Assembly (NCBI RefSeq): GCF_013046825.1
Contig: NZ_CP053187.1
Coordinates: 527,501 to 591,500 of the forward strand
DNA length: 64,000 nucleotides
DNA from: Turicibacter sanguinis
Lineage (GTDB): Bacteria > Bacillota_I > Bacilli_A > MOL361 > Turicibacteraceae
Direction: 5' to 3'
Positions 33,962 through 51,563 of this stretch are shown in pieces (position 1 is the first letter of the stretch; each line of letters opens with the position of its first letter). Made by a program: the position numbers and the translations under genes. The notes beneath the pieces are model-generated. The model searched no databases. It was not told where the DNA came from and worked only from the letters and a program-made list of their open reading frames with translations.

Positions 33962-36481
33962 TTAGTGTTCTTGTCCACAACATTGTTTATATTTTTTCCC
34001 ACTACCACATGGACACTCATCATTGCGTCCCACTTTATCAGCTTGACGTGTTACCGGGCGTTTTTTCTCTTCTTTTCCACTATTTGTAGCTGTTGGTTTC
34101 GCTACTTCCTCACGTTGTAAGTTTTGGCGAATCTCAGCACGTAAAATGTAACGAGTGACATCATCTTCAATACGTTCAATTAAACGATTGAACATTTCAA
34201 ACCCTTCAGATTGATACTCATGAAGTGGATTAATTTGTCCATAAGAACGTAAATGAATTCCTTGGCGAAGAGCATCCATTGCATCAATATGATTCATCCA
34301 ATGCGTATCAACAACACGTAAAACAATAACTTTTTGGAACTCATGGAAAATTGATGGATCAATTGATTCCTCTTTTTGACGGTAATTATCCTTCACAAGA
34401 GTTGCAATATATTCAATCATCTCACTTGTTGATTTTCCTTCAAGCTGAGATTTTTCTACATGATCAACTGGGAATAAGTTTGTATTTAAGTAGTTTAATA
34501 ACCCTTCATAATTATACTCAGTTGATGATTTAGCATCAGAGGCTTCCGCTGGAGCAAATTGTTCTACTAAACGTGTGATTGAAGAATCAATCATCGCAAA
34601 GATTACTGATGTTAAATCTTCAGTTTCTAAAATATCTTGACGTTGCCCATAAATCACTTCACGTTGACGACGGATAACATCATCATACTCTAATAAATTT
34701 TTACGCATATCATAGTTATTACCTTCAACACGTTTTTGTGCAGATTCAACGGCTTTTGTTACCATTTTACTTTCAATCGGTTCATTTGGATCCATTCCTA
34801 ATTTATCAACCATTTCGTGCATGCGATCAGAACCGAAACGACGCATTAATTCATCTTGGAATGATAAATAGAAGCGTGTATATCCAGGATCTCCTTGACG
34901 TCCAGAACGTCCACGTAACTGATTATCAATACGACGAGACTCATGACGTTCTGTCCCGATAACAGCTAATCCACCTAAAGCCTTAATTTCATCTGTTAAT
35001 TTGATGTCAGTCCCACGACCTGCCATGTTTGTTGCAATCGTAACAGCACCTTTTTTACCAGCATCCATAATAATTTCTGCTTCACGCTCATGGTTTTTCG
35101 CATTTAAAACGTTATGAGGAACCCCTTTACGTTTTAACAACTGAGAAATATATTCTGATGTTTCAACTGCAACTGTTCCAAGTAATACAGGTTGTCCTGT
35201 TTTATGACGATTTACGACTTCCTCTACTACCGCGTTGAACTTTGCATTGACATCTTTATAAACTAAATCTGGTGCATCAATACGCGCGATTGGACGGTTT
35301 GTTGGCACTTCAACAACCATCATATTATAAATGTTACGGAATTCTTCCTCTTCTGTTTTAGCAGTCCCTGTCATCCCTGATAACTTATTGTATAGACGGA
35401 ATAAGTTTTGGAATGTAATCGTTGCTAATGTTGAAGTCTCTTGCTTAATTTGAACATTTTCTTTAGCTTGAATCGCTTGATGAAGACCTTCTGAATAAGC
35501 ACGTCCTTTCATCAAACGTCCTGTAAACTGGTCAACAATTACGATTTCTCCATCTTGAACCACATAATCAACATCACGTGTCATAACAAAGTTTGCTTTT
35601 AATGCATTATTAATATGGTGTAATAATACAGCATGTTTAATATCATATAAGTTATCAATGCGGAAAGCACGTTCTGCTTTTTCAATCCCGCCTTCATTTA
35701 ACTGAATATTTTTCGTTTTAATATCAATATTATAATCTTCTTCATCACGTAATGACTTAACAAAGCGGTCAGCTAAAACATAAAGATTGGCTGTACGTTT
35801 TTGTCCACCTGAAATGATTAACGGTGTACGAGCCTCATCGATTAAAATTGAATCGACCTCATCGACAATCGCATAATTTAATTTACGTTGACACATTTGT
35901 TTTGCATAAAGCACCATATGATCACGTAAATAATCAAATCCTAACTCATTGTTCGTTGAATACATGATATCACATGCATATTGAGCCTTCTTCTCTTCAG
36001 AAGACATTCCAACTAAATTTAATCCAACAGTTAAGCCAAGCCAACGGTATAACTCACCCATTTCACGAGCATCACGACTCGCTAAATATTCATTGACAGT
36101 AATGATATGAACCCCTTTACCAGATAACGCATTTAAGTAAGCTGGCATCGTAGAAGTTAATGTTTTTCCTTCCCCAGTTCTCATTTCTGCAATATTACCA
36201 CCATGTAATGCAATTCCCCCAATAATTTGCACTTTAAATGGTGTCATACCAAGCACACGTGTTGAGGCTTCACGTACAACAGCGAAAGCTTCAACTAATA
36301 AATCATCTAATGATTCACCTTTTTCAATTCGCTCTTTAAACTCTAATGTTTTATTTTGAAGTTGCTCATCTGTTAATTGTTGCATATGTGGTTCTAATGC
36401 AATAACCTCATCTGCTAATTTATCAGCACGCTTTAATACTTTGACACTTGGGTCTAACATTTTTTTAATTGCTGCAATCAT
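33962..36481 (-). CDS. secA: Preprotein translocase ATPase SecA
   Basis: An 839-residue motor of the Sec translocase (842 with the first of three tandem ATGs). Walker A region is [23 protein letters not shown]-type box [17 protein letters not shown]; the second motor domain has [14 protein letters not shown] and [21 protein letters not shown]. The C-terminal zinc motif [14 protein letters not shown] is intact. AGGAG lies 8 bases from the third ATG (36481), chosen as start. Between hpf and prfB, as in Bacillus. Confidence 0.97.
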
Positions 36482-36776
36482 CATCATCGCTCCTTGTTTC
36501 TATATCGTCACTAAAAAATTAGCTACATACCTTTAAATATAGTATTAAATAAGTGTAAAAAATATCATTTGAAAATAATTTATTAACTTGTATATTGTTT
36601 ACAATTATTTTATTAACATAATGTTACCACTTTTAAGAGAACATGTACATAAAAAATCACCCCCCCATTTGGGTAATTTACGTACAGAAATATGATTATT
36701 TCAACTAATAACATACTTTAATTAATGAAATACATACTAAAATGAGAATACACACCCATTTTATCACTAAAATTAA
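36482..36776. other. Intergenic stretch upstream of secA
   Basis: AT-rich and non-coding, about 395 bases from secA to the hpf gene in all. It holds the secA promoter region, unassigned in detail, and two hairpins near the hpf end. Confidence 0.5.
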
Positions 36777-40408: not shown

Positions 40409-40460
40409 AGTTATCACACTCCTTCAGGTTTAGTATATTCCAAACAGAGTAAATCATTTA

Positions 40461-40492
40461 CTAAAAAGACTGACTCTTTCGAGTCAGTCTTC
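40461..40492 (-). terminator. Terminator of the pectinase gene
   Basis: Stem AAGACTGACTC / GAGTCAGTCTT. Nearly the same as the terminator at 46254-46283 of the neighbouring surface protein gene. Confidence 0.8.
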
Positions 40493-40497
40493 AAAAA

Positions 40498-43400
40498 TTA
40501 TTTTACTTGTTTTTTATCATTCTTATTTCTTTTAATATAAGAAACAAAAGCAAGTAATGTTGAAAAAACACCTAACGTCATCCATCCCATTAACGTATAA
40601 CCTGTTGCAGGTTTATTAGTCGTTGTTGATGATTGAGTGGTTGAATTAGTATTTTCTTCTGGTTTTGGTGTTTCAGGTTTTGAATCATCTGGTTTTGATG
40701 TATCCTTTATGAAAGAATTCAAATAACTAATCACATCGCTTTGATTAGTGTCCACAGTTAAAATTAAAGAAATACTTTCATTAGCACTTGTTAATAAAAC
40801 TGAATATTGAACTTCATTACTTCTAGTTTTCAACATAGATACACTTACTGTAAAATTAGATAATTTCTCAAACATTGATTTAACATCTGATAAACTTGCA
40901 CCTGTTATATCTAAAATTAACGGTTTATTAACGACTCCTGTTCCTGTTACTGGTTTAATAACCGTTGAATCAATCGCATCTTTAATTGAATCTGGGATGA
41001 TATAATTTGGTTTTTCAGGTACAACTGGCTCTTCAGGTTTTGGTGTTTCAGTTGAACCATTTGAACTAATCTCGGTTCCAACTGTAATAACAGTTGGCTC
41101 TGTTTTATTTGTTGCCATAATCCCTAAAAACTCTTCGCTTTCAAGCAATAAGGTTTCTAAACCATTAAAATCAAATCCACCCTTTTCATTAATCGTTGGA
41201 TAGTTTTTCATATCCACATTTTCAAACCAACTAGATGGAACAGATTCTCCATTAATATTTTTACCATCAAGATAGTTAGTTTCACTTGCTAAACTTGACT
41301 GTCCAGTCAACTTAATATCATCTACTTTACCACCGTTATAAGAAACAAAGTGATCTAACTTATAGTTTGTTTCTTTATAAGATGTATATAATGAAAGGTT
41401 TGTTCCACCGTTATTAAATGAGACAGTATTATAAACTTGAACGTCTGGTCCGCTGTTACTTGTAACTCCTTTAGCATAGTTGTTGAATGAAATACTATTT
41501 ATTAGAATGTGATTCCCCGGCATACTTTCTCCACCAAGTTTAAATCCATTTCCTTCACCCACCACTGTTTTCTCAGGATCTGTTGTCAAGTATCCATTTT
41601 CATACGCAATTGAAGACTCAACAACAACTTGTCCGATGCTTCCTGATGTTGATTTAGCATATAAATCCCAACCATCATCAATATTGTTATGAGAAATACA
41701 GTAACGGAAAATATTCCCAATACCTGCCGTGATTTTAGCTGCAAACCCATCTGCATCATTAGCATTAGCATCCATGTTGTCATAAGACTCAACACTTTGT
41801 ACTAAGTTATAGCTTGGCCACATACTCTTATCTTCAGAAGCCGAGCCACTAATTTGTACTCCTGTCGTTCCATTTTTATAGACTTTCAATTGTTCAACAA
41901 TATTATGATTCCCTTGAATTAATAATGGTTTTGCATTATCTTTTGAATTACAAATTTCAAATCCAAAGAAGTGCCAATAGTCAGCATTAATAGTAAATCC
42001 ACCTTTTGGTGATTGTGATAAATCAATCACCACACGTTTACCAGGTTCGGCCATTAATGTAATCATCTCATCAGCTGTTCCGTCATGTCCACGGTCAATC
42101 GTAATGGCTTCTGTCAAATAATATGTTCCTTCAAGTAAGACAATTTCCTGTCCCGGTTGAGCATACGCAACTGCCGTATAAATATCCAGTGGATTTTCTT
42201 GACTTCCCTCTCCATTTTTGCTTCCTGTTGTTGAAACATATAATGCATTTTCGCTAGTTCCAAATGACTGATAATCAACACTTACATTTAATGATATTGG
42301 TTCTAATGACGAAATTTGTTGATGACTTTCAAACGTCGGTTGGTCTATACTTGGTACAAATTCTACTGAAAACTTATTCGTTCCTTTATCTAAAGTTAAT
42401 TCTTTCAAAATACGTTGTGAACTTTCTAATGAAATATTTTGATATAGAATATTTCCTTTCTCATCTTTAATCGTTGCAGTTCCGGCTACATTTGAACGTA
42501 ATGATAAATCATAATCTGCTTTTGATGTTGTTTTCGTTGTATCACTAGAGATAGTCGGTGTAATATACTCAACCGGTCGCTCAAGTGCTGCATCATCTTT
42601 ATCAGGAGATATAACTGTTAAGTTAATATCTGAAACCGTGACTTGAACTCCTCGTGATGCCATGACTCCAACATATAAAGTATCCTCATTTTGTACAGTT
42701 AATAGTTCATTATCATAATCATAATAAATGACTTCATTCGTTGTATCATTATTCAAAATAGCATGATATCCCGTATTTGATTTACGAAGAGTTAATGTGT
42801 AAACATCCCCTGCTGTATAGTGAGGCTTAGATGGATCTGGGAATTGATTCTGATTAAAGTTCCAATCAAAGACTGACGTATTAATTAACTGACGATTACT
42901 TGATGGTACTGATGCTCCTTCTTCATAACCTGTAACAAAACGTCCCCCTGGAATTCCGTTATATGTCGTTGTACCATTCTTATAACGCGCAAACACAGCT
43001 CCAGCAGAGTTATAATAACGTGCACTTGAATTCCCTGTCACAAGACTATCCAGGGCTATAACTCCAAATCCAGATTGTCCATCATAAGTTTTTCCGCCTA
43101 CAGTTGTTGCATCAACTTTAAATGTAGCCGTAAATGTGAAATTTTCACTAGTTGGTAATTCAGTGTAATAGAAAGTCATTCCATCTTCACTATCTGCAAT
43201 TTTACCATTTGAAGCTGCAATCGTCACACTTCCATCTGTATTTTGAGTGACAGTTCCTGATGCATTTGATCCTACGTTCCCACTTTTCCATTCAAATTGT
43301 TGTTCTGGAATTTCAGTATCATTCTTCACTTCATAAAGTTTATAAATATTATTTTGTTGATTTTCATCAATTGGATTCCAGTCACTAGTATAAGCATCTA

Positions 43401-45957
43401 ATCCTTCTACGGTTTTAGCTGCACCTTTTGCAAACACGGTTTCAATACCAATAGATGTAGCCTCTTCAGGTGTTAATAAAGAACGAGTATCTGATAATTC
43501 AAATCCTGGTCCATAATTTCCAAATTCATAAAATCTTGAATCCTTCGCTAATGAAGTTGAACTCATATCATCCCACCCTTGTGTTGTGATATGACTACCT
43601 AAATAATTATTAATATAAATAACTGATGGAGTTACTGTATAAGTCGCACTACTTGGTCGCCAAGGTCTTCCTAAAGAAACTGATTCATCACGAATATCAT
43701 CTAATCCAATTAATTTTGAATTAATCACTAAATAACCATATTCATCTCTATCCCAGGTACTGGCTGCTGTAACATAGCCATTACTTACACCATTCGGAGA
43801 TTGACGATTATAAGATGCAATTTCACAACTATTAAAAATAGCTTGTGCACGTCCAAAGATAAAGTCTACGTCACCTTCAATATAGCAATTATAATAATAT
43901 TGACGCGCTGCAGATTCTTGACTACTCGTGTTAGCTAATAGTGTATCTTGATTTCCGATAAATCGAACATTAATCAACATACTTTGGTCAGCTTGATTAT
44001 GAAAAGCTACTGCTTGTTCATTAGCCTCACCTTTTTCAACAAATGAGTTTTCAATTGTAATATTTTCTGCACTGAATCCAATCGCCTTTGCTTTCACAGT
44101 AACACTTGCACTACCACTAGTTCCATATTTAATTCCTGTTTCAGGATTAATTGTTCCATGAGCAGCATCATATGTCCAAATTGTTTTTTGTGCATCTTCT
44201 CCGATAATACTAATATAAGGGGATTCAATGATTGCTTTTTCTTTGTATACTCCATTTTTAACAAAAATAGTGACACGTTCTTGATTACTAGATGAAACAG
44301 AATTTACAGCTTCTTGAATACTGCCATAAGTTGCAATTCCATTAACCTCTTGACCTGCTACACCTTGAAAAGAGGCATCAACGACTTTGTCAATATTTTC
44401 TTCAGTAAGATAAACAAGATTATATGTTTTCAATGTTGTTTTACCATCTGATGTTGTGTGGTAAATCTTAATCTCATTTCGACCGTAATCTAGTTTGAAG
44501 ATTTGCTCAAATAACTCACCTGCTGCTTTTGAAGCAGAGTCAACTAAAACCTCACCATTTTGTTCAATCTTAATTGTTCCATCTAAATTAGTTGATCCTT
44601 CTAATGTAATATGTGATGTAAACACGGTATCATTTGGTTCTTGTACCATATTAAATTGTGCAGCATCTTTTCCATATTGAAGATTCAGAGGATTACTGTT
44701 ATTTGGTAAGCCTGCAATAGCTTGTGAGTCATGCCCCGCTCCTACTGCATTTTTTGCCGCTATCTTATAATAATAGGTAACAAAATTTTCTACATTAGAA
44801 TCTGTGTACATTAATTCACTCGATTCAATAGTTGCAATTTCTTCATAGATACCATCTTTTTCATTTGAACGCTTGATTATATAATGCGTGGCTTCATCAA
44901 CAGCATTCCACGTTAACGTAACATGTTGATCACCACTCATTGCTTGAACATTTTCAACTGTTTCAACAGGCATTTCAATCAATTCAGAATCATAGTAAAC
45001 TTTCTCAGCTGTGGAAATCTTCACATGATCAAATGTTGCTGTAGCAGGCGTGTCACTTCCCCCATTGGCAACAAACATTCCGACATACCATGTATCTGCA
45101 GTCATAGAAACAGTTTGTCCTTTAAATACAGTGTTATCACTTGGGAAAGTTGGATCCTGTGAAACATAGTATTTAAAAGAATTACCGCTTTTTTCAATCT
45201 TAATATACAACTCTTTATTACTACTATTTAAATCGTTAGAAATAGCTGAAGCTCCTGTTTTCCCGGCTTCCCCATCACGATATCCATAACGATATTGATC
45301 TTTACTATGATCTAAATAAAGTGCAAAGTAATCTGCATTAGCACTTGTATTATCCGCGCGTACGACTAATCCAGCTTGCCCCTTATTAGCATTAGTCATA
45401 TCAAAATCTGCAAGACGTGCAACAATCGTGACGTCACCTTTTACTTCAAAATTAACAAACTGATAACTATCTGTTGCACCCAAATCCTTTCCAATCACAT
45501 TTCCTGTTCCTGTAATGACAAATTGTTTTAACTCTTTATTAAATACGGCATTTCCATTTCCGTCCGTACTATTAATTACCGTATTATTAAATCCTGTTGG
45601 TAAAGAACTAGATTCTAAATTTACAGTTGGTAGCACTTCTTCAAAAACTTCTTCTTGAGTTGAATTTTCTAGAATATCAGATGCAATCTCTACTTCAATT
45701 GATTCTTCTACATCAATTACAATTTCATCTTCCTGTAGAACTTCAATTACTTCTTCAGTCTTATCTTCTACCTCATTATCAATCATTTCATTTTCAATAG
45801 TTTCACTATCTGTCTCCTGAATGATTTCATCTGCTCCCAGATTAATACCTTCATCGGCAGTAGCTTCAACTCTAATAGTACTTACCTGAAAGTTAGATGT
45901 TAAAATTGAAATGGCAAGTATCGCTGATGTTCTTTTTTTAGCTGTTTTCAAATTCAC
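40498..45957 (-). CDS. Giant surface pectinase: CE8 pectin methylesterase plus PL9 pectate lyase
   Basis: An 1819-residue secreted protein, GTG start with GGGGGG upstream. Signal peptide at about 1-32, then an acidic linker. A lectin-like beta-sandwich (about 125-325), an Fn3 repeat (335-420) and a cadherin-like segment come next. The CE8 pectin methylesterase (about 527-812) keeps QAVAFHNQADQ, GNQDTLL, GDVDFIFGRAQ and LGRPW, with the Gln, two Asp and Arg of the active site. A second lectin-like module (about 890-1110) leads to a PL9 pectate lyase beta-helix (about 1240-1620), with the catalytic Lys region DADGFAAKI and NIDDGWDLYAKS. A module shared with the 1736-aa neighbour (about 1649-1745) and KPATGY anchor follow. 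It should de-esterify and cleave pectin at the cell surface. Confidence 0.9.
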   Translation of the reverse strand: MNLKTAKKRTSAILAISILTSNFQVSTIRVEATADEGINLGADEIIQETDSETIENEMIDNEVEDKTEEVIEVLQEDEIVIDVEESIEVEIASDILENSTQEEVFEEVLPTVNLESSSLPTGFNNTVINSTDGNGNAVFNKELKQFVITGTGNVIGKDLGATDSYQFVNFEVKGDVTIVARLADFDMTNANKGQAGLVVRADNTSANADYFALYLDHSKDQYRYGYRDGEAGKTGASAISNDLNSSNKELYIKIEKSGNSFKYYVSQDPTFPSDNTVFKGQTVSMTADTWYVGMFVANGGSDTPATATFDHVKISTAEKVYYDSELIEMPVETVENVQAMSGDQHVTLTWNAVDEATHYIIKRSNEKDGIYEEIATIESSELMYTDSNVENFVTYYYKIAAKNAVGAGHDSQAIAGLPNNSNPLNLQYGKDAAQFNMVQEPNDTVFTSHITLEGSTNLDGTIKIEQNGEVLVDSASKAAGELFEQIFKLDYGRNEIKIYHTTSDGKTTLKTYNLVYLTEENIDKVVDASFQGVAGQEVNGIATYGSIQEAVNSVSSSNQERVTIFVKNGVYKEKAIIESPYISIIGEDAQKTIWTYDAAHGTINPETGIKYGTSGSASVTVKAKAIGFSAENITIENSFVEKGEANEQAVAFHNQADQSMLINVRFIGNQDTLLANTSSQESAARQYYYNCYIEGDVDFIFGRAQAIFNSCEIASYNRQSPNGVSNGYVTAASTWDRDEYGYLVINSKLIGLDDIRDESVSLGRPWRPSSATYTVTPSVIYINNYLGSHITTQGWDDMSSTSLAKDSRFYEFGNYGPGFELSDTRSLLTPEEATSIGIETVFAKGAAKTVEGLDAYTSDWNPIDENQQNNIYKLYEVKNDTEIPEQQFEWKSGNVGSNASGTVTQNTDGSVTIAASNGKIADSEDGMTFYYTELPTSENFTFTATFKVDATTVGGKTYDGQSGFGVIALDSLVTGNSSARYYNSAGAVFARYKNGTTTYNGIPGGRFVTGYEEGASVPSSNRQLINTSVFDWNFNQNQFPDPSKPHYTAGDVYTLTLRKSNTGYHAILNNDTTNEVIYYDYDNELLTVQNEDTLYVGVMASRGVQVTVSDINLTVISPDKDDAALERPVEYITPTISSDTTKTTSKADYDLSLRSNVAGTATIKDEKGNILYQNISLESSQRILKELTLDKGTNKFSVEFVPSIDQPTFESHQQISSLEPISLNVSVDYQSFGTSENALYVSTTGSKNGEGSQENPLDIYTAVAYAQPGQEIVLLEGTYYLTEAITIDRGHDGTADEMITLMAEPGKRVVIDLSQSPKGGFTINADYWHFFGFEICNSKDNAKPLLIQGNHNIVEQLKVYKNGTTGVQISGSASEDKSMWPSYNLVQSVESYDNMDANANDADGFAAKITAGIGNIFRYCISHNNIDDGWDLYAKSTSGSIGQVVVESSIAYENGYLTTDPEKTVVGEGNGFKLGGESMPGNHILINSISFNNYAKGVTSNSGPDVQVYNTVSFNNGGTNLSLYTSYKETNYKLDHFVSYNGGKVDDIKLTGQSSLASETNYLDGKNINGESVPSSWFENVDMKNYPTINEKGGFDFNGLETLLLESEEFLGIMATNKTEPTVITVGTEISSNGSTETPKPEEPVVPEKPNYIIPDSIKDAIDSTVIKPVTGTGVVNKPLILDITGASLSDVKSMFEKLSNFTVSVSMLKTRSNEVQYSVLLTSANESISLILTVDTNQSDVISYLNSFIKDTSKPDDSKPETPKPEENTNSTTQSSTTTNKPATGYTLMGWMTLGVFSTLLAFVSYIKRNKNDKKQVK

Positions 45958-46253
45958 GAATAATTCCCCCCGGATTCACTACTTAAGTAGCATCGTTCAT
46001 TTTACGAATAGTTTTTCATTTCCTTCTTAATTAACCGATTAAAATTCTTTACTCCCTCCATTCTAATTTCACATTAATTCACAAGATAATAATGCCACAC
46101 TGTAAACGGTTACGTTGTCGAACCATGACAGAAAAGAGGAAAAAAATTCGCTTTAACGTGCGGCATTCGTATTTCCGAATATAGTAGTTTTCCTAATACA
46201 CTTTAACCATATTTTGAAGACAGAAAAGTCTACTTTCTTTTATCTTGGCGAAA
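45958..46253. other. Upstream region of the pectinase gene
   Basis: About 300 bases without a gene. It contains a cre-like site at 46101-46114 and the AT-rich probable promoter between that and the GTG start. No ORF is seen. Confidence 0.6.
46101..46114. promoter_or_regulatory. cre-like CcpA site upstream of the pectinase gene
   Basis: TGTAAACGGTTACG matches 13 of 14 positions of the cre consensus TGWAANCGNTNWCA. It lies about 145 bases before the pectinase start, which fits carbon catabolite control of pectin use. Binding is inferred. Confidence 0.55.
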
Positions 46254-46283
46254 AAAAGACTGACCCTTTGGAGTCAGTCTTTT
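46254..46283 (-). terminator. Terminator of the PHP surface protein gene
   Basis: Minus-strand stem AAAGACTGACTCC / GGGTCAGTCTTT, then T-run. The stem core AAGACTGACTC is the same as in the pectinase gene terminator. Confidence 0.8.
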
Positions 46284-46286
46284 AAA

Positions 46287-49200
46287 TTATTTTACTTCTT
46301 TTTGACGTTTATTATAAATTACGTATGCTACATATCCAGCAACGATAAATGCAATACCACCTAACATCCATCCCATTACTTGATATCCTGTTTCGGGTTT
46401 ACCTGTTGATGGGTTTGAAGTCGTTGAATGATTTGTTGAGTTGTCGTTTGAATTATTGTTGCTTCCATCTGTGTTTCCACTATGATTTCCACCTGAATTA
46501 GAACCGCCACCTGAAGTGTTAATTAATGAATTTAAATAATTTACAACTTCAGTTTGAGATTTTGAAACTGTTAAAATTAATGAAATAGTTTCACCACTTC
46601 TTGTATTTGGAATTAATTGAATAGAATACTGGAATTCATTTGATGCTTCCGCTAATAAAGTGACTTTAACCGTATATCCTTGGAATCCATTTATCATTTC
46701 TTCAACATCTGTTAAAGTTGCACTTGATGCATTTAACATTAATGGACTTTCCACTGATCCATTTCCTGTCATTGGTTTAATCACAGCTGTATTAATTGCC
46801 CCTAAAATTGAATCAGGAATACTATATTCAGGAACCTCTGGATTTGGAATTTCTGGCGTTTCATCATCAATAACCACTAATTCATCAGTATCGCGAACAC
46901 GAATACGTGATCCTTCTGGGTCCTCTGCTGATAATCCAACAGCATATAACGTATCTCCTACTGAAATACGTGATTTCCATGAATCAATCTCATCTACTTT
47001 ACTTCCACCAATATATCCATTGATGAAGACACGAGCTTCTCCACTTCCATCATTAACAAAGATATTTCCTTTTTCAGTATCAATTCGAGTTACTGTTCCT
47101 TTCACGGCTACTAATAAACCTTCAGTTTCTTCTAACATACTATCTGCAGTTGACATGAATGTTGGTTTCACTAAGTTAATTGACTCATCAAGAATTTCAA
47201 CATCTAATGCTTCATTCACATTTCCTAATTGAGTATCACCTTCATAAGCTCCAACCACACCTGTAATACGTACTTTTTGTCCAAGTTTTAATTTTAAATT
47301 TGAAATTGGGTGAATCGTAATCCCACCGGTTTCATCTTGTACATAAATAACATCAAAGAACGTTGTTTTTGAGTTAGAGTTCCCAGCAGTCACATAACCT
47401 TCGATTGTACGAGTTTCACCTGCTAAATCTGGCATATTATCCCCATCTAGATCAGTATGAAGTTCTTTAATAGGGGTGATTTGCGCTTCTTTCGCTGGCG
47501 CTAAATCATTGATTAAATTTGTTACAATCGTACGGTTTGAATAATCATTCTTTGGATTCATTTCGAAATCTGAGAAGAACGTTACACCCGACGCTACTAC
47601 TTTAGATCCATTTGGTAAAGTTTCAACTGCTAACGCAACCATGTCACCTGGATTTAATGGAGTATAATCGCCTTGTTTATCCGCGTCATCATTCGTTGTA
47701 GTCTCATGCCCTTTTACCACAACATCAACATTTGTTGCATCTGCCGGAACTAAAACTGAATTTCCACTATAGAAACTAAATTTATAATCCGTATTTTTTG
47801 AATTACCTTGCTCTATTTTTCCAAAATCAATTCCTTTTGTATAGGGACTTTCTTCATTATAATCATCGAAGTATAAACGGTATGCTTGCCCACCATTTTC
47901 AACTGGATCTACAACCTGATCATCATTGAATCGAATCGTTGCACCGATTGCCTCTAAAACTTTATTTCCTTGAGCTGCGTTTCCAAACTGACCCGTTTGA
48001 TCTTTATAATCAGCTTTAGATGTGACGATTAAATCCCCACCTGCTTCAACAAAGGCTTTAATTGCTACGACCTCTTCATTACTGTAAACAAAATCATTTT
48101 CTGGATCTGTAATAATTAAAACATTGATTCCAGTTAAAATTTCAGATGTAATTGTTTCAGTATTAATCTTAACAACTCCACCTTCTTGGCCTACTAATTC
48201 AGTTACATAGTTCATGTTTCCAGCATAGTTTCCGGTTACGTATCCATTCATCTTACTTCCATCAATTAAAACATGGCTTACTTCACTTGAATCAAATGCT
48301 GTAATTTCAATACGCTCTGTATATTCACGAACAGCACCATTAATCGTTAATGTGAGCACTGCTTCGATCACATTTTTCCCTTTTTTCGTAATTGGGAATG
48401 TTGCTTTTAAAGAACCATTATTTGATGCTTCAATCATAGCTAATGAATCTGTTGCAACAGCTTCTGTTGATCCATTTACATAATATTCTACTTTAGCATT
48501 GGTAATAGCTTTACTTTCATTATTAAATACAACTGTTTCAACCGTTACCTCATCTCCTACTAATAATTTAGATGAGCTTGCTTCAACGTTTGAAATACCT
48601 ACATTTTCTTTTTCCCCAATCCAGACTGGAGCGGTTACCGCGATATCTTTATCTCCTTGAACCACTTTTACATAATAGTAAGTTGATGATGCATCTGGAG
48701 TAAATGTTAACTTCCATTCTTTTTCAGTCGCATTTACATTTGTAACCTCATGAGCAACGCGCCCACCATCTGTGATTAATTGAATTTTATCAATCGTATC
48801 TCCAGCATCAGGATCTAATACTGTTACCACTACATTAGCTTCTGATTGCTCAGATAAAATAGACCCCATTGTCGCACCATTTAACTCATATGAAATCTCT
48901 AAATTCTCATCTTCTGTTGAATAAACACGACGTTCACGAATCGCTTCATATAGGCTTTCACGTGTTAACTCTTCCGCTTCAATTACAGTACGCGCTGTAT
49001 TTGCATTTCCCCATAACCCTTTATGGTTATCTTGGTTATTTGTTGGAGCAACGTGCCATCCTTTATCTAACGCACGAGTATAATACTCATAAGATGGGAA
49101 ATGTCCACTTCCACGAATCGGTCCATCACCATTCCCTACTTCAATCAATGTAATTAATTCATCCACTTGTTCATCATAGAATCCAAAGTCTACGAAATCA

Positions 49201-51497
49201 CCAAATGTTGTTCCAGGATGGTTAAATTGTGAAACTGATTGTTCTTGCGTTTTTAAGGCATTATAATACGATTTTAAATCCATTGCTGCATTTGTACGCG
49301 TCTCAAACCCTGGTGTATTGAACGTATTCATATGTCCATACTTCCCAGTACCCGCTGACCAAGTCATTTCATAAGCATATAATGCTGTAAACACACCATC
49401 TTCATTATACTTATCAGCCGCTGCTAATCCTGTATTCCACTTCGTACTCATTGATCCATCAGCAATACTCGCTTGTGTATCATTATCAAATGAGTTTGAA
49501 TGATCAGTTACCGCTAAGAAATCAACTTTTGCTTGATTTTTAGCATACGTATAAGCTTCATCGATTGTTCCTTGACCATCTGATAAATTTGTATGAGAGT
49601 GTAATTGTCCAAAATATAAATTTCGAGCAACATCAGCAACTTTAAAGCTCCACTCTTTTTCGACGGCATTTCCTACTTTATCTTCTAACTGTAACTTAAT
49701 CGAATAAGTTCCATTTTCTAATTCTTTTTCAACTTGGTACGTTACCTCAGTTTCAGTAATTGTTGCCTTTTTAGTTACTTCTTCACCATTTAAGAATAAC
49801 TTCACTGACTCTGTGTTAATTCCTGAACGATCAGAATATTTAGCAGAAATTTTAGGTGTTTTATTTTTACCTAAGTTTGCATTATCTGCTGGAGATAGAC
49901 TCGTAATAAGAGGCGCAACCTTATCTAAATCAGAAATTTTAACCTGATATGTATCAGTCTGTGCTTTATTTCCTTCAGCATCTACTGCTTCAATATAATA
50001 TTCCATTCCATCTGTTGATAAATCAGACTTAGAAATCGTGCCTTCATATAAACCGTCCACTAAAGCCATCTCAATTGTTCGGAACTTTTCAGTCCCTGCA
50101 ACACGATAATTTAATGTTACTTTAGCAAGTTTACGATTATCTGATACATTGGCTTTAACCACTAAATCATAATCAAGATTTCCTTCTGCTAGGGCCGTAT
50201 GTTCAATAACAGGTAATTCTGTATCAGGTTCTTTATCCTTTAATGAAGTAGCTACTAATTTTAAGTCATCTAATGAAACATTCATTTGACCTTTAGTCGT
50301 TACAACAACTTGTAAACGAGTCGCATTAGCTGGTACCTCTAACTCATGCTTCACAGCACTTCCAGTAATTTCACTAATCTCTGCTAACGTATGCCAAGTA
50401 GTTCCATAATCAGATTGATATTGAACCGCTAAAACTGTTGTTCCTGAAGCTTGAGAAGAATTTCCCTTCACAGTTAAGTAAAACTTTGCAGTATCACCAA
50501 GTCCAAACTCTTGCGTTTGAATAAAATGATCCTTTTGGTTCATCTTCAGTGCAGGTCCACTATAAGTTTCAGTTACATTTGTACTCCAACCATCAGCTAA
50601 CGTTGGGAAAGAAGAAAATCCTTCATCAAAAACAACGATTTCTTCCACAACTGGCGTATTTTCTACAATGATTAATTTTTCAGCTACTAAACTTGGGTTA
50701 GCAGTTGATGTTGCCGTTAACATTGAACGTCCTTCAGCATGAGTTGTTATTTTTCCTTCAGGTGTTACAGTAATAACATTCTCATCAGTTGAAGCATACG
50801 TTACTTCTGTTTGTGTTGTATTTTCTGGTTGATACTCAACTTTTAACGTTGATTCAACCCCCACAGCAAGCTTAGAAGCTCCTGTTAGAACTAAACCTTC
50901 TAACGGAACAACATCTGGTGTTGGCTCACTTGGTAATTCTGCATCAGTAGAAGTAGATGTTGTTGTGACTTTAACATCATCAATCATCACATTCCCAACC
51001 ACTTTATTAATCATAAATTGAACTTGTGTCACCGTTTGGGCAAGCTCAAAAGTTAATGTTTGTTTATCTTGAGAAATAACCTCTGATAAAATAGTTTCCC
51101 AAATCCCATTATTAAGAACTTTAACAACAAGCTCTGAAGAAAAATCACCATTATTTCCATTACCTTTTGCGACAAAAGATAACGTTCCTACATTATCTAA
51201 TACAAACATCGGTGTTGTTAGTGTTTGTCCATTACTTCCAAGTTTAACAGATGGCGCAGCTAATCCACTATTTGAGATGTTATTATAGTTTGGACGTTGT
51301 CCATACGCATTTTCCTCTAACCACCCACTCGGCATTTCATTTATATAGTTATCAAAACCTTCTGATAAAACTACTTTCTGTACCGCCACTTCTTCCGCAT
51401 GAACAAAATATTTCGGTGTAGGGATTACAAATCCCGTTGTTGCGATACTAACAGCTAACACACTGTTTAATACCTTTTTAAAAATTGTTGTCCTCAT
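46287..51497 (-). CDS. Giant surface protein with PHP metallohydrolase domain
   Basis: About 1736 residues, secreted. ATG at 51497 (MRTTIFKKVL) follows GGAGG. Numbering here is from a start four codons earlier. Signal peptide about 5-40; two jelly-roll-like modules (about 45-185 and 290-425) flank a Big_2 Ig-like repeat (200-285). Two more Ig/Fn3-like repeats follow, then a PHP domain (about 630-880) with all likely metal ligands: QLHSHTNLSDG, LAVTDHSN, YAYEMTW, SQFNHPG and NNQDNHKG. A CARDB repeat (970-1060), a gatase/DUF4350-like segment (1078-1330), two OB folds (1360-1445, 1456-1506), the shared module (1556-1660), a Gly/Ser/Asn linker and KPETGY anchor complete it. It is CehA/McbA-like; substrate unknown, nucleotides or phosphoesters being possible. 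Confidence 0.85.
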   Translation of the reverse strand: MRTTIFKKVLNSVLAVSIATTGFVIPTPKYFVHAEEVAVQKVVLSEGFDNYINEMPSGWLEENAYGQRPNYNNISNSGLAAPSVKLGSNGQTLTTPMFVLDNVGTLSFVAKGNGNNGDFSSELVVKVLNNGIWETILSEVISQDKQTLTFELAQTVTQVQFMINKVVGNVMIDDVKVTTTSTSTDAELPSEPTPDVVPLEGLVLTGASKLAVGVESTLKVEYQPENTTQTEVTYASTDENVITVTPEGKITTHAEGRSMLTATSTANPSLVAEKLIIVENTPVVEEIVVFDEGFSSFPTLADGWSTNVTETYSGPALKMNQKDHFIQTQEFGLGDTAKFYLTVKGNSSQASGTTVLAVQYQSDYGTTWHTLAEISEITGSAVKHELEVPANATRLQVVVTTKGQMNVSLDDLKLVATSLKDKEPDTELPVIEHTALAEGNLDYDLVVKANVSDNRKLAKVTLNYRVAGTEKFRTIEMALVDGLYEGTISKSDLSTDGMEYYIEAVDAEGNKAQTDTYQVKISDLDKVAPLITSLSPADNANLGKNKTPKISAKYSDRSGINTESVKLFLNGEEVTKKATITETEVTYQVEKELENGTYSIKLQLEDKVGNAVEKEWSFKVADVARNLYFGQLHSHTNLSDGQGTIDEAYTYAKNQAKVDFLAVTDHSNSFDNDTQASIADGSMSTKWNTGLAAADKYNEDGVFTALYAYEMTWSAGTGKYGHMNTFNTPGFETRTNAAMDLKSYYNALKTQEQSVSQFNHPGTTFGDFVDFGFYDEQVDELITLIEVGNGDGPIRGSGHFPSYEYYTRALDKGWHVAPTNNQDNHKGLWGNANTARTVIEAEELTRESLYEAIRERRVYSTEDENLEISYELNGATMGSILSEQSEANVVVTVLDPDAGDTIDKIQLITDGGRVAHEVTNVNATEKEWKLTFTPDASSTYYYVKVVQGDKDIAVTAPVWIGEKENVGISNVEASSSKLLVGDEVTVETVVFNNESKAITNAKVEYYVNGSTEAVATDSLAMIEASNNGSLKATFPITKKGKNVIEAVLTLTINGAVREYTERIEITAFDSSEVSHVLIDGSKMNGYVTGNYAGNMNYVTELVGQEGGVVKINTETITSEILTGINVLIITDPENDFVYSNEEVVAIKAFVEAGGDLIVTSKADYKDQTGQFGNAAQGNKVLEAIGATIRFNDDQVVDPVENGGQAYRLYFDDYNEESPYTKGIDFGKIEQGNSKNTDYKFSFYSGNSVLVPADATNVDVVVKGHETTTNDDADKQGDYTPLNPGDMVALAVETLPNGSKVVASGVTFFSDFEMNPKNDYSNRTIVTNLINDLAPAKEAQITPIKELHTDLDGDNMPDLAGETRTIEGYVTAGNSNSKTTFFDVIYVQDETGGITIHPISNLKLKLGQKVRITGVVGAYEGDTQLGNVNEALDVEILDESINLVKPTFMSTADSMLEETEGLLVAVKGTVTRIDTEKGNIFVNDGSGEARVFINGYIGGSKVDEIDSWKSRISVGDTLYAVGLSAEDPEGSRIRVRDTDELVVIDDETPEIPNPEVPEYSIPDSILGAINTAVIKPMTGNGSVESPLMLNASSATLTDVEEMINGFQGYTVKVTLLAEASNEFQYSIQLIPNTRSGETISLILTVSKSQTEVVNYLNSLINTSGGGSNSGGNHSGNTDGSNNNSNDNSTNHSTTSNPSTGKPETGYQVMGWMLGGIAFIVAGYVAYVIYNKRQKEVK

Positions 51498-51563
51498 AAT
51501 ATCCTCCATATTACTTATTTTCTGAAAATAAAAATGGCCTTTAATATTTTCAGATTTATTTCC

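Follow-up and report, generated by a model that had tools for sequence, protein, structure and literature searches.

A CE8 pectin methylesterase and a PL9 pectate lyase domain in one predicted wall-anchored protein of Turicibacter sanguinis

The CE8-PL9 gene and its site

The window is a stretch of 64,000 nucleotides from the Turicibacter sanguinis genome, a 3.0-Mb single contig (NCBI RefSeq assembly GCF_013046825.1, contig NZ_CP053187.1, positions 527,501 to 591,500). The reverse strand has a gene that encodes a CE8 and a PL9 domain in a single chain of 1819 residues. A sequence-only reading of this DNA had claimed such a chain, and the claim is confirmed: the open reading frame is real and both domains are matched far beyond chance. 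The GTG start codon is preceded by a GGGGG ribosome-binding stretch. The features of the locus, in window coordinates, are as follows.

46254..46283, no strand: terminator-like hairpin just 3' of the stop of the upstream gene; consensus match only
40437..46250, reverse: 5.8-kb segment that relative G001 lacks at this site (relative G004 too, by gene order), from genome comparison
40498..45957, reverse: CE8-PL9 surface protein gene, 1819 aa, GTG start; Pfam, NCBIfam and 1ru4 matches
45859..45957, reverse: signal peptide, residues about 1-33; KTAKKR, hydrophobic core, VEA/TADE; by eye from the translation
44983..45600, reverse: ConA-like (lectin-fold) domain 1, residues about 120-325; GH43_C2 at E=0.003, below cut-off; low-confidence model
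44698..44967, reverse: Fn3 domain, residues about 331-420; E=0.007, below cut-off; PDB 3mpc at E=2.6e-6
44398..44670, reverse: cadherin-like beta-sandwich domain, residues about 430-520; weak match, below cut-off
43372..44370, reverse: CE8 pectin methylesterase domain, residues about 530-862; Q670, D671, D698, R764, W766
42592..43305, reverse: lectin-fold (legume-lectin-like) domain 2, residues about 885-1122; fold matches at E about 1e-4
42262..42576, reverse: Ig-like beta-sandwich, residues about 1128-1232; from the secondary structure of the model
41098..42255, reverse: PL9 pectate lyase domain, residues about 1235-1620; Ca2+ site D1403, D1427, D1428, D1431; base K1473
41539..41541, reverse: codon of K1473, equivalent of the catalytic base Lys273 of Pel9A, from alignment to Pel9A
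40717..41010, reverse: pre-anchor domain of unknown family, about 100 aa, common with the neighbouring surface protein
40534..40614, reverse: sortase-type tail, KPATG and a hydrophobic helix, then a basic end; from the motif and the sortases in the genome

The gene is flanked by a PHP-type surface gene and a 1-phosphofructokinase gene. These two genes are direct neighbours in G001 and G004, with the PHP-type surface gene first, and in the alignment to G001 the matching DNA picks up again after 97 bp where the source genome has 5.8 kb. Since the site is empty in both relatives, the CE8-PL9 gene would have been either gained in the source genome or lost in both G001 and G004. The hairpin at 46254..46283 suggests that the gene is transcribed separately from the upstream gene, although terminator-like sites found by the same consensus scan are overall no commoner than in shuffles. 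Promoter-like sites are also no commoner than in shuffles and were given no weight.

The adjoining PHP surface protein gene (46287-51509, reverse strand) encodes a surface protein of 1740 aa that has a KPETG motif, a CehA/McbA-type PHP metallohydrolase domain, and OB-fold and Ig domains; the gene is conserved, at the same position, in two relatives. The proteins of these relatives (L140, L141) have long GNNN repeats before the sortase motif, which the window copy is without. The comFA gene is whole in the source genome and G004, is split into two frames in G001 (L141), and lies in parts about 23 kb apart in G002 (L142/L143). The window also has a SecA gene (33962-36487, reverse strand, 841 aa), whose score passes the SecA cut-offs but not those of the SecA2 models.

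The signal peptide, the KPATG motif with its helix and basic tail, and the three sortase genes in the genome are together consistent with a sortase-anchored surface protein, in line with the surface anchoring claimed from sequence. The KPATG motif is non-canonical, which counts against the pectinase reading developed below. The anchor region is 45% identical to that of the neighbouring surface protein and has a weaker likeness to surface proteins of relatives. Because the anchor is closest to that of its neighbour among the few anchors compared, there is a hint that it was taken from the gene next door.

Enzyme domains and lectin-like folds

The Pfam Pectinesterase family (PF01095) matches residues 539-822 with an E-value of 1e-44 and 153 bits, against a cut-off of 27. 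The residues Q670, D671, D698, R764 and W766 are present and are invariant in both CE8 alignments made (A2, A4), so the Gln, Asp, Asp and Arg motifs are kept as the sequence-only reading had it. The first four match the Gln/Asp/Asp/Arg set of PemA. They also match Gln230, Asp231, Asp253 and Arg326, the CE8 active site of PmeC5 (PMC12109409). A model of residues 120-862, built from 15 sequences, is of low confidence overall (pLDDT 61), which is a weak point of the pectinase reading. The best Foldseek match of this model is PemA (2nsp/1qjv; E=2.4e-14, TMt 0.72), suggesting that the CE8 domain is a right-handed beta-helix like PemA. The structural check proposed with the sequence-only reading comes out in favor of CE8 for this half of the protein, from a model that is only partly confident.

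The best NCBIfam match is the PelX model NF041903 (E=4.5e-65), which covers residues 1053-1526 and so includes part of the region before PL9. The equivalog cut-off is not reached (220 bits versus 1490); the 1819-aa protein is a relative of PelX and not the same protein. The sequence of the Pel9A structure (1ru4) matches residues 1231-1520 with E=9e-28 as a single sequence and E=6e-57 with the family profile. In Pel9A the Ca2+ ligands are Asp209, Asp233 and Asp237 and the base is Lys273 (PMC10992409). In the alignment to 1ru4, where Pel9A positions are the chain numbering plus 25, D209, D233, D237 and K273 pair with D1403, D1427, D1431 and K1473. These residues, with D1428 beside D1427, are present and invariant among the aligned relatives. 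The catalytic Lys had been placed in DADGFAAKI from sequence; since Lys273 of Pel9A aligns with K1473, the wrong motif was named. The base sits in GNGFKLGG, and DADGFAAKI, rejected as the catalytic motif, holds D1403, which corresponds to the Ca2+ ligand Asp209. The active site of the PL9 domain is, by this alignment, complete despite the misplaced motif.

The model of residues 868-1641 has a mean pLDDT of 87.5 and, among PDB structures, is most like Pel9A (E=1.3e-16). This half of the structural check likewise agrees with the earlier assignment and predicts a Pel9A-type beta-helix. The second match is a PL9 rhamnogalacturonan lyase. The PL9 family also includes rhamnogalacturonan lyases, which counts against the pectinase reading, and it is conceivable that the domain is a rhamnogalacturonan-I lyase and not a homogalacturonan lyase, in which case the two enzyme domains would act on different parts of pectin. 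The rhamnogalacturonan lyase 5olq/5olr is the second-best match by profile as well as by fold and shares the main catalytic motifs. However, the PL9-family profile scores Pel9A at 196 bits versus 88, a single-sequence search finds only Pel9A and not 5olq, and the best NCBIfam match is the PelX model. After DGF the rhamnogalacturonan lyase reads GGH, whereas the window protein reads AAK and Pel9A reads GPK. It is therefore unlikely that the PL9 domain is a rhamnogalacturonan-I lyase.

The protein also has lectin-fold modules; structural matches to ConA-type and legume-lectin folds support the lectin-like character read from the sequence. The model of domain 1 resembles GH16-type and GH43 C-terminal folds, with ConA-like matches weaker than the PemA match. 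The legume-lectin matches of the 868-1641 model probably belong to its front part, which is our own assignment, and domain 2 is conserved together with PL9 in relatives. The several lectin-fold modules, their fold matches to the adhesin domains AAP, SraP and YwfG, and the wall anchor could also be explained if the protein was mainly an adhesin for plant fibre or mucus, with enzyme domains that are weakly active or serve for release from fibre. This is very unlikely, as the catalytic residues are all intact in both domains and the downstream pathway is encoded in the genome.

Relatives and origin of the fusion

Relatives were obtained by a scan of genome contigs with the PL9 alignment A1 as the query; the same scan with the single protein as the query gave no matches. 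The sample is the best 79 named PL9 loci of at least 568 matches, and counts refer to this sample. A CE8 domain is in the same open frame as PL9 in 11 of the 79, all of them Lachnospiraceae (Butyrivibrio, Lachnospira and other members). The CE8 domain comes first in ten of these fusions and the PL9 domain in one. None of the 11 has an LPxTG-like motif in the last 60 residues; such a motif is present there in an unfused Enterococcus PL9 protein. Unfused PL9 proteins of Actinotalea, Demequina, Sanguibacter and Cellulosilyticum ruminicola (L048-L056) have the same unit of lectin fold, Ig and PL9, which is 43-46% identical to the window protein over about 750 aa, but have no CE8 in the same frame.

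In a quick tree of PL9 domains the window protein does not group with the Lachnospiraceae fusions but with ten unfused proteins (Actinomycetota, Cellulosilyticum and one MAG) at 99% SH-aLRT. A single clade of all fused PL9 domains is rejected (p=1.5e-11), which partly reflects mixing within the Lachnospiraceae. The CE8 tree separates the window protein from the Butyrivibrio type and puts it in a group of PemA-like sequences (92/81, not starred); its nearest CE8 is one of Fredinandcohnia. Since both trees set the window protein apart from the Lachnospiraceae fusions, it most likely goes back to a separate fusion event that joined a PemA-like CE8 to a PL9 unit whose relatives are unfused enzymes of actinomycetes and Cellulosilyticum. 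Closer fused relatives may exist, as the searches covered part of all genomes.

The plan of CE8 and PL9 in one chain has already been published for PmeC5 of Butyrivibrio fibrisolvens D1T (2089 aa; PMC12109409). Both proteins are secreted multidomain chains with CE8, PL9 and adhesin-like domains and the same proposed role. However, PmeC5 is reported to carry glucan-binding YG repeats (PMC12109409), and the window protein has a sortase-type tail. The CE8 domain of PmeC5 (PDB 9mm2) is a distant structural match, ranking 14th, and the CE8 domains of the Butyrivibrio fusions form a separate branch. The window gene could nevertheless be the same gene as that of a PmeC5-type protein, passed laterally as a whole, and the order of CE8 then PL9 is common to most of the fused relatives. 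This origin is highly improbable and is disfavoured by the CE8 and PL9 trees: neither domain clusters with those of the Butyrivibrio fusions, and the rejected single clade also argues against it, in part through the mixing already described.

The single-domain systems are more distant in plan. PelX/Pel9A of Dickeya/Erwinia (NF041903, 1ru4) share the PL9 fold, the Ca2+ site and the catalytic Lys but are Gram-negative proteins without CE8 or a wall anchor. PemA (1qjv/2nsp), the best structural match of the CE8 half, shares the fold and the Gln/Asp/Asp/Arg set but is a single enzyme domain without PL9 or a wall anchor. The one-chain plan is thus known, and what appears different here is the CE8 branch, the PL9 branch and the sortase-type anchor. 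The novelty is modest: a confirmed and sensible CE8-PL9 chain of an already published arrangement.

Pectin pathway and proposed role

The genome has a galacturonate cluster at about 2.626-2.642 Mb. The cluster encodes an ABC importer (a lipoprotein and two permeases), GH105, GH28, UxaC, a UxaB-like protein of the mannitol dehydrogenase family and an altronate-dehydratase-type UxaA. It also has a KdgR-like IclR regulator, KduI, a KDPG-type aldolase, a KDG-kinase-like PfkB and a short-chain dehydrogenase (KduD-like). No signal peptide is visible on GH105 or GH28, so these enzymes would act on imported oligomers. A secreted PL1 protein of 675 aa is encoded at 1.002 Mb, and a second CE8 of 314 aa without a signal peptide at 117 kb. 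GH105, GH28, UxaC, KduI and PL1 are above cut-off in one of five genomes of the genus, which is the genome with the fusion; none is above cut-off in the other four, one of which is only 85% complete. Beside the cluster is an elongation-factor-G-like gene (L044:13219-15165, reverse strand) related to tetracycline ribosomal protection proteins and below the curated cut-off. About 1.4 kb from the PL1 gene is a gene that looks by eye like a bile salt hydrolase (L126:4792-5823, reverse strand).

It is likely that the protein is a secreted, sortase-anchored two-enzyme pectinase with uptake and catabolism downstream. Given the complete active sites, the secretion and anchor signals and the galacturonate pathway in the genome, the chain is best read as working at the surface with de-esterification first and lyase cleavage second, and the protein is probably functional. 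That the gene lies outside of the catabolic cluster counts against it. The lectin-fold and Fn3/Ig modules would hold the protein on plant cell-wall polysaccharide while the CE8 domain would remove the methyl groups of homogalacturonan by ester hydrolysis. The PL9 domain would then cooperate on the same chain, cutting the exposed pectate by Ca2+-assisted beta-elimination to unsaturated oligogalacturonides. The ABC transporter may import these for breakdown by intracellular GH105 and GH28, and KduI/KduD with UxaC/UxaB/UxaA, KdgK and Eda would lead to pyruvate and triose phosphate.

Turicibacter is probably a gut genus and is better known for bile acids and lipids. Literature searches turned up nothing on pectin degradation by Turicibacter enzymes; what they gave was shifts in the abundance of the genus on pectin diets, including a reported enrichment in pectin-fed rats (PMC11203915). 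The evidence leans towards an independently evolved sortase-anchored CE8-PL9 protein whose gene was gained at a single site, together with a galacturonate pathway located elsewhere in the genome, and which would make one species a primary pectin degrader in a genus not known for pectin use. If true, a separate origin of an esterase-then-lyase surface chain in another Bacillota lineage would suggest a benefit from coupling the two steps physically, and it predicts species-specific pectin use and methanol release.
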